From Streptomyces sp. NBC_01262 (GTDB lineage: Bacteria; Actinomycetota; Actinomycetes; Streptomycetales; Streptomycetaceae), in NCBI RefSeq assembly GCF_036226365.1, contig NZ_CP108462.1:8912501-8976500 (forward strand): 64,000 nt of DNA, read 5' to 3'. The stretch's first letter is position 1; every line of letters starts with the position of its first letter. A model generated the notes under the pieces. The model made no database searches. It was given only the letters and a program-made list of their open reading frames with translations, and had not been told where the DNA came from. This document shows, piece by piece, positions 53 to 37,509 of this stretch. A program made the position numbers and the translations under genes.

Positions 53-3177
<3,125 letters not shown>

Positions 3178-3181
3178 CAGT

Positions 3182-3205
3182 TGCTCGCGTCCACTGTGTA
3201 GTTCT
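3182..3205 (+). other. 23S rRNA processing stem, 3' arm
   Basis: Pairs with 24-47 to close the 23S precursor into a long stem, starting four bases after the mature 3' end. Probable RNase III site. Confidence 0.8.
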
Positions 3206-3248
3206 GAAGTAACGAACTGTGTTGTTCCGGTTCGGATATCTTCATAGT

Positions 3249-3367
3249 GTTTCGGTGGTCATTGCGTTAGGGAAACGCCCGGTTACATTCCGAACCCGGA
3301 AGCTAAGCCTTTCAGCGCCGATGGTACTGCAGGGGGGACCCTGTGGGAGAGTAGGACGCCGCCGAAC
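3249..3367 (+). rRNA. rrf: 5S ribosomal RNA
   Basis: 119-base 5S rRNA beginning GTTTCGGTGG and ending CCGCCGAAC; these termini pair to form helix I. The central CGAACCCGGAAGCTAAG segment is the conserved loop region. It follows the 23S by about 70 bases in the same transcript and is followed at once by a strong terminator. Confidence 0.97.
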
Positions 3368-13900: not shown

Positions 13901-13916
13901 GGCAGCGGCCGCAGAC

Positions 13917-14142
13917 CCCATGCGGGAGAGTCCCGGCAGTGCAGGTCAGCCGGGCGCCGAAGGAGCAAATCCTCCCCGGAATCTCTCAGGCATCCGTACC
14001 GCACGGGTGAGGTCACTCTGGAAAGCAGGAAGGGTCCGAGGGCAGCGTCGCCCCGGGTGCTGCCTCACCGACGGTGAAAGCCGTTCCGTGGATTCACGCG
14101 GGACGGTGAAGCTCTCAGGTTCAGATGACAGAGGGGGAGGCC
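13917..14142 (+). ncRNA. Tandem glycine riboswitch
   Basis: Two glycine aptamers in series. The first runs from GGGAGAGTCC through GCCGAAGGAGCAA and GGAATCTCTCAGGC to ACTCTGGAAAGCAGG (about 13923-14031). The second contains CGACGGTGAAAGCC and GGTGAAGCTCTCAGGTTCAGATGACAGAGGGGG in pieces from about 14069 to 14138. The family switches on glycine-cleavage genes when glycine is abundant. About 45 bases separate it from the gcvP start. Confidence 0.92.
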
Positions 14143-35393: not shown

Positions 35394-36386
35394 ATGCATC
35401 AGTCGCACGTCACCCAGGGGAGGAACGCCGGCCTCGGGCTCGCCCTCGTGTCCGCGTTCGCGTTCGGCGGTTCGGGGGTCGCGGCCAAGCCGCTGATCGA
35501 GGCCGGGCTGGATCCGCTGCACGTGGTGTGGCTGCGGGTGGCGGGGGCGGCGCTGATTCTGCTGCCCGTCGCCTGGCGGCACCGTGCGCTGGTGCTGCGA
35601 CGCCCCGCGCTGCTGCTCGGCTTCGGGCTGCTCGGCGTCGCGGGAGTGCAGGCCCTCTACTTCGCCGCGATCTCCCGGATCCCGGTCGGTGTCGCGATTC
35701 TCGTGGAGTTCCTCGGCCCCGCGCTGTTGCTGGGCTGGGTGCGCTTCGTGCAGCGCAAGCCGGTGACCCGGGCGGCGGCCGTCGGTGTCGTCCTCGCGGT
35801 CGGCGGCATGGCATCCGTCGTCGAGATCTGGTCCGGGCTGGCCTTCGACGCTCTCGGCCTGCTTCTCGCCTTCGGTGCGGCGGTCTGCCAGGTCAGCTAC
35901 TTCGTCCTGGCCGACCACGGCAGCCAGGGCGACGACGCGCCCGACCCGTTCGCCGTCATCGCGTACGGCCTGCTGGTCGGCGCCGTCGCCCTCACCCTCG
36001 TCTCCCGCCCCTGGGACATGGACTGGTCCGTCCTCGCCGGACAGGCCGCCCTGGGCACGCGGGACGTGCCCGCGTGGGTCCTGCTCGGCTGGGTGGTGCT
36101 GGTCGCCACCGTCGTCGCCTATCTGACCGGCGTGCTCGCGGTACGGCGGCTGTCGCCGCAGATCGCGGGGGTCGTGGCCTGCCTGGAGGCGGTCGTCGGC
36201 ACCGTCTTCGCGTGGGTGCTGCTGGGCGAACACCTCGCGCTGCCGCAGATCGTGGGCGGTGTGCTGGTGCTCGCCGGGGCGTTCGTCGCGCAGACGGCCA
36301 AGCCGGGCTCCGCGGCCTCCGCGCATGCGGCGGAGCCGGTCATCGACCCGATCCCCGAGCCGGTCGCCGGGCGCGAGCACGTATAG
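35394..36386 (+). CDS. EamA/RhtA-type drug/metabolite exporter
   Basis: 330 residues with ten hydrophobic segments in two EamA repeats. Diagnostic pieces are FGGSGVAAKPLIEAGLDP, ISRIPVGVAILVEFLGPA and RLSPQIAGVVACLEAVVGTVFAWVLLGE. Such DMT carriers export amino acids or other small metabolites. The C-terminus is a cytoplasmic proline/alanine tail. Its TAG stop lies inside the -10 hexamer of the following leader ORF, tying the two units closely. Confidence 0.85.
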   Translation: MHQSHVTQGRNAGLGLALVSAFAFGGSGVAAKPLIEAGLDPLHVVWLRVAGAALILLPVAWRHRALVLRRPALLLGFGLLGVAGVQALYFAAISRIPVGVAILVEFLGPALLLGWVRFVQRKPVTRAAAVGVVLAVGGMASVVEIWSGLAFDALGLLLAFGAAVCQVSYFVLADHGSQGDDAPDPFAVIAYGLLVGAVALTLVSRPWDMDWSVLAGQAALGTRDVPAWVLLGWVVLVATVVAYLTGVLAVRRLSPQIAGVVACLEAVVGTVFAWVLLGEHLALPQIVGGVLVLAGAFVAQTAKPGSAASAHAAEPVIDPIPEPVAGREHV

Positions 36387-36396
36387 GGTGCTGAGC

Positions 36397-36438
36397 ATGC
36401 CTTCGCAATACGGCGTTCTGCCGCCTCCCGCCGCCTGA
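36397..36438 (+). CDS. Leaderless 13-codon leader ORF upstream of the second EamA gene
   Basis: Encodes MPSQYGVLPPPAA. TAGGGT (36384-36389) is a -10 element seven bases before the ATG, so the transcript should start at or next to this codon. Three consecutive prolines near the end are ribosome-slowing. Its codons include CTCCCGC (36425-36431), complementary to the ribosome site of the downstream transporter. It is likely a regulatory leader peptide rather than a functional product. Confidence 0.5.
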   Translation: MPSQYGVLPPPAA

Positions 36439-36543
36439 CGCGGGCGGCGAACCCACGCAAGACCGGAACCCGGGTGCTGCCCGGGTCGGTTGCCGCTGCC
36501 CGCATACGGGACCAGGCGACCCTTTCTTGTCTTCCGCGGGAGA
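36425..36543 (+). promoter_or_regulatory. Structured leader with competing pairings before the second EamA gene
   Basis: CGCCGCC (36429-36435) can pair with GGCGGCG (36443-36449). The latter region can instead form the base of a downstream stem: 36440-36449 with 36494-36503, capped by ACCCGGG/CCCGGGT at 36468-36486. Separately, CTCCCGC (36425-36431) is the exact complement of the ribosome site GCGGGAG (36536-36542). Confidence 0.5.
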
Positions 36544-36549
36544 ACATCC

Positions 36550-37509
36550 GTGTCGAATCACCATGCCCTGTCCGTCGGACGGGGGCTGCTCTACGTCACC
36601 TTCGCCGCCACCGCCTGGGGGACCGCGGGCGCGGCCGCCTCGCTGCTGTACGCCGGCAGCGGCCTCGGCCCGCTGGCCCTCACCTTCTGGCGCTCGGCCG
36701 GCGGTGCCCTGCTGCTGTTCGCGGCTCTTCGGCTCGGGCGGGGACGCCGTCGAGTCCGGGCGTCCTCCGCTCCGGTGGGGCAGATCCTTGTCACCGGCCT
36801 CGGGCTCACCGTCTTCCAGGCCGCGTACTTCTGCTCCGTCGCGGCGACCGGGCTCACCGTGGCCACCGTCGTCACGCTGGGCTCCGGGCCCGTACTCATC
36901 GCCCTCGGCGCCCGGCTCACCCTGGGCGAACGTCTCGGCCGGGGCGGGCTGACGGCCGTCGGCGGCGCGCTGGCCGGGCTCGCGGTGCTCGTGCTGGGCG
37001 GTGACGGTGGTGCGGACGGGCAGGTCCGTCCGGCCGGTGTCGCGCTCGCGCTGCTTTCCGCCGCCGGGTACGCCTGCGTCACCGTGGTGACCCGGCGCAC
37101 GGGGCGTGCGGGCGGGGACTTCGACCCCTTGCTCATGTCGCTGTGGTCGTTCGCGATCTGCGCGGTGTGCGTTCTGCCGTTCGCGGTGGGGGAGGGGCTG
37201 CTTCCCCAGGCGCACGGGCTCGGGCGGACCGCCGTCCTGCTCGCGTACCTCGCGGCTGTGCCGACGGCTCTGGCCTACGGGCTCTACTTCGCGGGGGCGG
37301 CGGTGGTCCGGGCCGCCACGGTCTCCGTGGTGGCGCTGATCGAGCCGGTCTCGGCGGCGGTTCTGGCGGTTTCCGTGCTCGGCGAGCGGCTGGTCGGCGC
37401 GACCGTCCTCGGCACGGTCGTCCTGCTTTCGGCGGTGGCCGTCCTGGGCCTCCAGGAGGCCCGCCAGGGGGCGGGGGCGACGGCGGAGGCCGGGACCGCC
37501 CGGCCGTAG
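36550..37509 (+). CDS. EamA-family transporter behind a leader ORF
   Basis: 319 residues, ten hydrophobic helices, two EamA repeats: [55 protein letters not shown] and [24 protein letters not shown]. It is expected to export a small metabolite. GTG at 36550 is set by GGGAG eight bases upstream. Its leader contains a short translated ORF and competing hairpins, which suggests control at the translation step. It is only about 37% of the way from the other EamA genes in local pattern, not a recent duplicate. Confidence 0.83.

Follow-up and report, generated by a model that had tools for sequence, protein, structure and literature searches.

The window, that is the whole 64,000-nucleotide stretch of Streptomyces sp. 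NBC_01262 analysed here, carries two EamA genes in tandem on its forward strand. The downstream gene (36550-37509, + strand, GTG start) encodes an EamA/DMT transporter of 319 amino acids, which matches PF00892 (E=8e-27) and TIGR00950 (E=4.3e-30, below the cut-off of that model, as are its NCBIfam matches) and for which no PDB relative was found by sequence. The upstream paralogue (35394-36386, + strand), which we used as a control gene, adjoins the leader of the transporter gene, and a tandem paralogue of at least 45% identity was found at 64 of 66 loci. Its stop codon, TAG at 36384-36386, lies within the -10 box TAGGGT (36384-36389, + strand), as a preliminary description of this DNA had stated, and 7 nt separate this box from the ATG (36397) of a leader ORF (uORF) encoding MPSQYGVLPPPAA, the 13-codon ORF of that description (36397-36438, + strand), which ends with TGA at 36436-36438 and is placed as if leaderless. 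The last part of the uORF, 36415-36438 on the + strand, holds the core V-L-P-P-P-A-A-stop, recognised as conserved from residue counts in 79 leaders and from codon variation. The leader of the window folds 3.2 standard deviations below its own shuffles, and the combination of a TANNNT box, 4-9 nt, ATG or GTG, and a short ORF carrying PP towards its C terminus is expected at only 0.6 per 128 kb of Markov-1 sequence, so the leader is more than a chance arrangement.

A counterpart of the leader ORF was found within 420 nt at 64 of the 66 streptomycete EamA loci, and in the other two the ORF is broken, without a stop in L040 and without a start in L048; with the distance limited to 350 nt, the same succession of TANNNT, spacer and PP ORF is seen before 63 of the 66 orthologues. 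The leader model R1 matched 216 of 297 genomes of the family (E<=0.01), a number that includes by construction the 45 leaders from which it was built, and in its own genome the ORF of the window was the sole credible match (E=1.8e-16). Outside the family, EamA was matched at E<=1e-30 in 17 genomes of other actinomycete families, and 16 of these have a short ORF with PP(P); the order-level draw of genomes overlaps the family draw of 297. Another search, reaching further out, recovered such an ORF at 19 of 30 loci by a strict rule and at 22 of 30 when L206, L228 and L229 are counted, with 8 of the 30 lacking a PP ORF; four of the five most distant loci outside the family recur among these 30. 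At the most distant loci PP(P) is kept and the box mostly so, while the GCGGGC/TGCCCGC strands behind the ORF are lost. The PP leader was found before none of six EamA homologues from outside the class, nor before the neighbouring EamA paralogue (0 of 64). These comparisons of sequence show that PP(P) ORFs of this kind have been retained alongside a single clade of EamA transporters across several actinomycete families. The preliminary description had offered non-conservation of the leader ORF as the outcome that would count against it; this was tested and did not refute it, a leader peptide placed as if leaderless and conserved over several families is supported, and the leader observation is confirmed at the level of sequence with a scope beyond the original one.

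For the comparison of leaders we used 79 distinct sequences, selected for a TANNNT box at a set spacing. Not among them are the leaders of the window itself (L001/L002), loci without EamA (L024-L027), loci with the same leaders as L003, L012, L006, L005 and L022 (L028-L031, L036), PP ORFs without TANNNT at that spacing (L004, L020), the broken ORFs (L040, L048), a Chloroflexi locus of 32% identity (L094) and a fragment (L095). We call Streptomyces-type the 47 leaders with a 13-residue uORF, except those of the window, L003, L052, L055 and L077; this grouping was made after the alignments had been seen. Of the 79 leaders, alignment A1 has 47, A2 has 28 and A3 has 45; L018, L052, L055 and L077 are in neither A1 nor A2. 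In this set, chosen for having the box, the distance from box end to start codon is 7 nt in 65 leaders and 6 nt in 12, and the box always ends 6-9 nt before the start, as in leaderless transcripts. In 47 of the 79 leaders the motif TTG[AT]C precedes the box by 18 nt (1 of 79 in the control), but it is absent at that position from the window. The conserved box places the predicted start of transcription on, or immediately beside, the first codon of the leader ORF.

The uORF has 10-14 codons in the 79 leaders and ends in V-L-[PS]-P-P-A-A-stop, with V in 78, L in 79, P or S in 76 and 3, P in 79, P in 79, A in 75 and A in 66; PP is found in all 79 and PPP in 76, the run of sensed codons that a classical amino-acid leader of the trpL/hisL type would have. 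Across leaders the core carries two to four consecutive proline codons, the first proline is replaced by serine or alanine in some, and the core also occurs as TPPPAL and SPPPAR. Codon heterozygosity at positions 1/2/3 is.02/0/.53 for V,.07/0/.58 for L, and.07/0/.21, 0/0/.44 and 0/0/.50 for the three prolines, so that the first two positions of VLPPP are almost invariant while the third varies, indicating that the peptide is selected. The proline codons, which the preliminary description had singled out, are indeed the conserved core.

Behind the peptide lie RNA strands with more than one potential partner. In the minimum free energy (MFE) structure of the window, segment 1, the end of the uORF (36429-36437, + strand), pairs with segment 2, GCGGGCGGCG (36440-36449, + strand), directly behind the uORF stop, and a spacer hairpin forms at 36468-36486 (+ strand). 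Segment 3, CGCTGCCCGC (36494-36503, + strand), would pair with segment 2 in an open state or with the Shine-Dalgarno (SD) strand in a closed state; the loop of a hairpin GGTTGCC/GGCGACC (36488-36521, + strand) holds most of it, and the T-rich stretch behind this hairpin (36522-36533, + strand) is a weak terminator candidate. Segment 4 is the SD of EamA, GCGGGAG (36536-36542, + strand), which, like CGCCGCC (36429-36435) and GGCGGCG (36443-36449), was located as first described. From uORF stop to EamA start we counted 109-313 nt in the leaders and 61-283 nt in 21 distant leaders.

Two rival pairings recur across leaders, one between the uORF end and the post-stop strand and the other between the post-stop strand and a downstream CTGCCCGC, which bears out the competing hairpins proposed for this leader; as the leaders are related by descent, the counts that follow are of non-independent events. 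The equivalent of the 1:2 hairpin is 95.7% paired in the 47 Streptomyces-type leaders, where the counterpart of the spacer hairpin has 2 pairs with double changes and the 2:3 helix is 99.6% paired yet nearly invariant. In the 28 diverse leaders of A2 the 2:3 helix is 96.1% paired, with a covariation score of.160 against.104 for shuffles, reached by 0 of 500 of them; a slide of -3 gave an equal score (.166) and 13 double-changed cells versus 6, but only 68% pairing. The 3:4 helix is 93.4% paired in the 47 leaders, with 2 pairs showing double changes (reached by 13 of 500 shuffles), and segment 3 pairs with the SD strand in 88.6% of the cells of A2. When the RNA was made only as far as segment 3, the probability of 2:3 was 0.90 with the uORF covered and 0.14 with it free (n=75, skipping L052, L055, L058 and L077), and it was higher with the uORF covered in 71 of 75 leaders; in the window the values were 1.00 and 0.59. 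A blind comparison of segment 2 with all downstream sequence beat shuffles in only 2/47, 16/32, 1/13, 2/15 and 0/6 leaders of five groups, and the complementarity is weak outside one of them.

Whether these pairings reach the SD is less clear. The preliminary description had noted CTCCCGC in the uORF as the exact complement of GCGGGAG; this holds in the window but is not specific among the 47 relatives, in which uORF and SD pair in 94.3% of cells (230 cells) versus 97.1% (140 cells) when slid by -2 columns, and we reject the uORF itself as a specific anti-SD strand. Complementarity between the counterpart of segment 3 and the SD region exceeds that of shuffles in 28/47 and 14/31 leaders, 42/78 together, and 36494-36503 is the better SD-side partner. 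As a general anti-SD outside the Streptomyces-type leaders, the strand immediately behind segment 2 was rejected (it beats shuffles in only 5/79); L188 and L190, neither of them in that 79-leader test, looked convincing for it. Equilibrium folding of whole leaders gave no difference at the SD whether the ribosome stalled (0.25) or terminated (0.27; n=79), and a shuffled segment 2 made no change either (0.26). Among the 28 other leaders, forcing 2:3 rather than 1:2 opened the SD in 17 (by more than 0.1) and closed it in 1; in the window the value was 0.30 against 0.01, but in the 47 Streptomyces-type leaders the SD did not open (0.22 vs 0.27; a rise in 11 and a fall in 19). SD masking is therefore only partly supported, covariation speaking for it and equilibrium folding not, and of the translation-attenuation device first proposed the layout stands while the release of the SD is not seen on folding Streptomyces-type leaders.

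A Pro-rich leader kept in so many actinomycetes suggests that the transporter is switched by the ease with which ribosomes pass the prolines, and we give roughly two chances in three that 36384-36549 is a ribosome-mediated attenuator that controls EamA by ribosome passage through Pro-Pro. Ribosomes would load straight onto the start codon of the leader. One that reaches the stop would cover or refold segment 2 and leave segment 3 free to pair toward the SD, with EamA off, whereas one slowed at Pro-Pro would cover segment 1 only, so that the free segment 2 could capture segment 3 during transcription, leaving the SD strand open and EamA on. The trigger could be anything that slows Pro-Pro bond formation, be it a shortage of EF-P, uncharged tRNA-Pro or a compound acting on the ribosome, and in the last case EamA may export that compound. 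We hypothesise, as a tentative and rather doubtful extension, that in an actinomycete circuit the minimal nascent peptide (VL[PS]PPAA, TPPPAL or SPPPAR) acts as receptor of some compound or stress preventing Pro-Pro bond formation, and that EamA, once switched on by it, exports the compound, in a dedicated polyproline-stress efflux; candidate signals would be a failure of EF-P, an analogue of proline, a polyamine or a natural product that acts on the ribosome.

Other explanations share parts of this evidence. The conserved run of two to four proline codons would suit a sensor of proline itself, with ribosomes stalled by uncharged tRNA-Pro as in classical amino-acid attenuators and with EamA as a carrier of proline or of a metabolite linked to it, possibly inwards, and some EamA-like proteins do carry amino acids (TIGR00950, here matched below cut-off). 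Leaders of the hisL kind hold the number of sensed codons high, while here serine or alanine can stand at the first proline; characterised relatives of EamA are mostly exporters, and export would be the wrong direction under starvation, so we consider such a sensor unlikely. Somewhat less improbable, though still not what we expect, is that the same leader and sensing act through termination of transcription between uORF and EamA, intrinsic or Rho-dependent according to species. The absence of SD opening in Streptomyces-type leaders fits this, as do the hairpin at 36488-36521 followed by CTTTCTTGTCTT in the window, a TTTCTTTT near the same place in L003, and the transcriptional action that passages on known actinobacterial leaders (trp, ilv, wblC/whiB7) describe (PMC8079986, PMC1262725, PMC13236596). 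However, no terminator was called in 36300-36650, the interval from uORF stop to gene start holds a T-rich stretch (5 of 8) in only 2/47 Streptomyces-type and 8/32 other leaders (10/79 in total), unlike the intrinsic terminator with U tract that opposes an antiterminator in trpL/hisL-type leaders, and the complementarity of segment 3 to the SD region in 42/78 leaders also speaks against it.

The strong conservation of the RNA strands behind the ORF could also mean that a ligand-binding RNA is the conserved unit and the ORF incidental. This riboswitch reading is very improbable, given codons that vary at position 3 and hardly at positions 1 and 2, and the loss of GCGGGC/TGCCCGC where PP(P) stays. 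Furthermore, Rfam release 15 gave six matches at E<=10 and none at gathering score in 36300-36650, and over the whole window only rRNA and a glycine riboswitch, both elsewhere, so that an Rfam-known element was rejected. Equally hard to credit is an ORF that merely feeds re-initiating ribosomes to EamA: re-initiation has been proposed for leader genes near structural genes, but passages of the same source place its peak at 10-11 nt (PMC4833913), far below the distances measured here, and a feeder ORF would not need a PP core.

Among known systems, the attenuator proposed here comes close to mgtL/mgtP of the Salmonella Mg2+ transporter genes, also short leader ORFs with proline codons before a transporter gene, in which, according to the available passages, slowing at proline codons that EF-P relieves selects alternative stems and raises mRNA levels (PMC6460261). 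In that account the mgtA ORF lies within a 264-nt leader, attenuation is transcriptional and the transporters are unrelated, whereas the present ORF opens the predicted transcript, has VL[PS]PPAA as its last residues and is followed by terminator tails that are not conserved. Mutually exclusive pairings of uORF end and downstream strands are found here as in ermC/toiL-type leaders, and stalling on toiL before E. coli topAI alters the RBS structure of the next gene, with output at the level of translation; the gene is another, several antibiotic classes stall ribosomes at different positions, and abstract and outline mention no PP core (PMC12121999). The LEU element, whose codon run pairs with the SD, and other actinobacterial, often leaderless leader peptides share the run of sensed codons, and one of them, metL, stands before the operon of a transporter, the Met importer; those described in the portions consulted concern Leu, Trp, Ile/Val, Ala, Thr, Met and Cys and genes of biosynthesis, tRNA charging or import, and the words proline and EamA are absent from the main texts (PMC1262725, PMC8079986). 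The CruR RAPP uORF and uA_LPPP likewise place a C-terminal PP motif before the next gene, with arrest by that motif thought to occur in CruR, where loss of EF-P had no effect, and shown for uA_LPPP; as excerpted, these proteins are long and bear an export signal or a Cu-binding motif, and the gene that follows is secA or one for a TonB transporter (PMC9426467, PMC10987492), while a peptide of 10-14 residues is too short for an N-terminal sensor of the SecM/ApdA/CruR type. Finally, the whiB7/wblC attenuator is likewise an actinobacterial uORF, responding to stress on translation by turning on a regulator of resistance; it acts by transcription attenuation before a regulator gene and is not described as PP-specific in the passages at hand (PMC12421871, PMC13236596).

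In titles, abstract beginnings and passages of the open-access literature we did not find this leader described, the strings VLPPPAA and TPPPAL did not occur in the literature searched, and no title on the element appeared among the matches listed for EamA with leader or exporter. The leader would be a new variant of ribosome-mediated attenuation. Leader peptides usually precede genes of biosynthesis or resistance with a known input; here the Pro-Pro sensor codons are kept over several actinomycete families while the other residues of the peptide and the letters of the RNA drift. The element is a handle on whether actinomycetes use EF-P-dependent stalling as a signal and on what the EamA carriers of this clade move, and it could serve as a reporter of Pro-Pro stalling in Streptomyces.

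The source genome (G000, 9.74 Mb in one contig) carries two tandem EamA genes at 35394-36386 and 36550-37509 of the window, and the leader occupies the 163 bases that separate them. The nearest named relative at the locus is Actinacidiphila soli (L028), with an EamA identity of 75%. The TAG of the -10 box TAGGGT (36384-36389) is also the stop codon that closes the first EamA gene, and 7 nt behind the box lies the ATG of a short upstream ORF (uORF) that ends at 36438 and encodes MPSQYGVLPPPAA. Folded from this ATG onward, the RNA is 3.2 sd more stable than its dinucleotide-shuffled versions. The window also contains a glycine riboswitch (Rfam RF00504) at 13913-14011 and, at its beginning, 23S and 5S rRNA genes (53-3367).

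A scan with the EamA protein returned 68 loci, two of which were unusable (L094, a 32% Chloroflexi match, and L095, a fragment). In 64 of the 66 usable loci we found a short ORF with a Pro-Pro pair (PP ORF) at most 420 nt from EamA and with a TANNNT box in front; the exceptions are L048, where the uORF start codon is lost, and L040, where the stop is lost. In L048 the element upstream of EamA is otherwise intact, and the missing start is either a sequencing error or decay. The upstream EamA paralogue sits directly 5' in 64/66 loci, with a median of 10 nt between its stop and the uORF start, so its end would carry the promoter of the leader. Across 79 distinct leaders (scan loci pooled with loci of the genus), the -10 box ends 7 nt ahead of the start codon in 65 and 6 nt ahead of it in 12. 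The motif TTG[AT]C lies 18 nt 5' of the box in 47/79, versus 1/79 for a control stretch placed 100 nt upstream; it was not found at that distance in the window's own leader. By chance, a box followed after 4-9 nt by a start and a short ORF with PP close to its end turns up 0.6 times per 128 kb of Markov-1 sequence; the window has two such ORFs, one of them the leader itself. The 66 loci, 761,160 strand-bases in all, contain 68 short ORFs with such a box in front, and 64 of them have PP, all at the leader, while the tandem EamA paralogue has a PP leader in 0/64 of the same loci.

The uORF has 13 residues in 51 of the 79 leaders and 11 in 23. Its N-terminal half is variable (e.g. MHSDAL, MPSNAL, MHARAL, MHLT, MPQT), and its core reads V (78), L (79), P (76) or S (3), P (79), P (79), A (75), A (66), stop. 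At the first, second and third codon positions of the core, V has heterozygosities of.02/0/.53, L of.07/0/.58 and the three P of.07/0/.21, 0/0/.44 and 0/0/.50, a pattern indicating that selection acts on the peptide. Rare T-ending codons are also strongly over-represented in the leader ORFs of relatives: GTT makes up 50/78 core Val codons, CTT 45/79 core Leu codons and CCT 57/79 second Pro codons, whereas the EamA genes of these loci use them at 1.4%, 1.3% and 3.0%. The window's own uORF has GTT and CCT, but its Leu codon is CTG. This excess may slow decoding, keep the 5' end open or favour pairing; in E. coli, as excerpted from PMC8129111, the slow diproline codons are CCC and CCU.

Behind the uORF end (segment 1) follow segment 2 (36440-36449), segment 3 (36494-36503) and the Shine-Dalgarno (SD) site of EamA (segment 4). 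In the 47 Streptomyces-type leaders we compared a set of four helices, namely the middle of the uORF paired with the strand ahead of segment 3, helix 1:2, a hairpin in the spacer and helix 3:4. Jointly these are 93.8% paired, and 7 pairs show double changes, compared with 2.5 after shuffling and no more than 5 in slid registers; alone, helix 3:4 has 2 such pairs (13/500 shuffles), and the helix of the uORF middle has 11 double-changed cells (5/500 shuffles). Helix 2:3 is 99.6% paired there and proves little, because it is almost invariant. In 28 more diverse leaders, 2:3 is the only consensus helix found by RNAalifold, 96.1% paired and with covariation above all 500 shuffles, although a register slid by -3 equals its covariation score with more double-changed cells and 68% pairing. 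Helix 3:4 is 88.6% paired in these leaders, and its three double-changed cells come from L043, L045 and L014; L043 and L045 are poorly aligned there, and the three cells were given no weight. A Streptomyces subgroup (L040, L052, L055, L077) has rearranged leaders with segment 2 displaced; L040 has lost its uORF stop, yet retains a CTGCCCGC strand and EamA. The preliminary description had proposed a stretch inside the uORF as a possible anti-SD strand, a role for which the comparison gives no specific support: in the 47 leaders this pairing amounts to C-runs against G-runs, 94.3% paired in place, 97.1% when slid by -2 and 88.7% when slid by +2 (both on fewer cells). Segment 3 replaces it as the candidate strand.

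Folding of RNA ending just past segment 3 shows, in the model, that 1:2 and 2:3 compete. The probability of 2:3 was 0.90 with the uORF covered and 0.14 with it free (1.00 and 0.59 in the window), and higher when covered in 71/75 leaders, a rise that is partly built in, because covering the uORF removes the competitor. When the best partner was picked blindly, 21/47, 26/32, 10/13, 15/15 and 4/6 leaders in five groups changed in the same direction by >0.1. A ribosome of the usual footprint that has the second Pro codon in its P site would shield the RNA as far as roughly the stop codon and so leave segment 2 free, whereas one standing on the stop codon would cover that segment; slowing at Pro-Pro would therefore favour 2:3. 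Forcing 2:3 instead of 1:2 made the SD more open in 17/28 other leaders and less in 1/28, and did not open it overall in the 47 Streptomyces-type leaders (up 11, down 19). Whole-leader equilibrium folding showed no effect of a stalled versus a terminating ribosome on the SD, either in Streptomyces-type leaders (0.27 vs 0.33) or in the others (0.21 vs 0.19), where the sole effect was a rise relative to the free uORF (0.09). T-rich terminator tails are scarce (10/79 leaders), and a translation-level output is therefore rated as likelier than a transcription-level one.

A sequence-only model of the leader (R1), which starts at the -10 box and extends 14 nt past the uORF stop, has one credible match in the source genome (E 1.8e-16; next best 0.3), and its matches in that genome with E above 0.3 (L097-L099) have no EamA beside them. 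It matched 216/297 family genomes and 10/17 genera at E ≤ 0.01, and, at E ≤ 0.001, 80/119 genomes of an order draw that overlaps the family draw and 25/246 of a class draw. All 49 family matches retrieved (L100-L148) have EamA (for L111 and L115 the distance given is to the upstream paralogue), and a PP ORF was recognised in 48, the exception being L147. G073, a family genome lacking a match at these thresholds, still has the PP ORF MNAALVTVSPPPA (L186). Among the seven class-draw matches outside the family, L154-L156 and L158/L200 precede an EamA; L157, L159 and L160 have none behind them and were taken as chance. In the family genome G110, a second, distant EamA (L225) has its own leaderless-looking triple-Pro ORF, MHARRHICPPPRF, and may form a second, paralogous circuit there.

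A search of the class with the EamA protein (E ≤ 1e-30) gave 17 genomes outside the family, and inspection of all 17 upstream regions revealed a short PP ORF in 16 (L154-L156, L180, L188-L195, L196-L198, L200) and none upstream of EamA in G465 (L199). The peptides include MTPFIVSPPPAR, MPLIVSPPPAR, MSSTVLSPPAA, MTFTALAPPAA, MHRLFPVTPPPAL and MHRTFPITPPPAF, as well as MTPQPRLLPPPAA in L200, which is without a canonical box. The EamA proteins of the last five of these 17 genomes are just 35-39% identical to the window's, and a second class search with one such distant homologue gave 56 matches. Among the best 30 of these 56, 19 meet a strict leader rule, L206, L228 and L229 carry a PP ORF that falls short of this rule, and 8 have no PP ORF; nor was one seen with six EamA homologues belonging to other classes of the phylum (0/6). 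Mapped onto a tree of 49 EamA rows, the leader takes 6 changes, compared with a mean of 8.5 after shuffling (4/500 shuffles as low), which suggests that it is old, with losses or repeated gains.

By their logic, the nearest known systems in the portions of the sources cited are the Salmonella leaders mgtL/mgtP, whose proline-codon ORFs precede Mg2+ transporter genes, depend on EF-P and act on transcription (PMC6460261), and toiL, a uORF opening a ribosome-binding site (PMC12121999). For other amino acids, leaderless leader peptides have been described in Actinobacteria, one of them preceding a Met importer (PMC8079986, PMC1262725; partial texts), and the words proline and EamA are absent from the main texts of both. 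CruR and uA_LPPP are PP-ending uORFs that, in the excerpts available, encode long proteins (PMC9426467, PMC10987492), unlike the EamA leader peptides of 10-14 residues. In the open-access literature, mostly titles and the beginnings of abstracts, we found no published description of the element. Judged by these comparisons, the leader is real and conserved across several actinomycete families, and the preliminary description rightly read it as a leader-peptide device before a putative EamA transporter.
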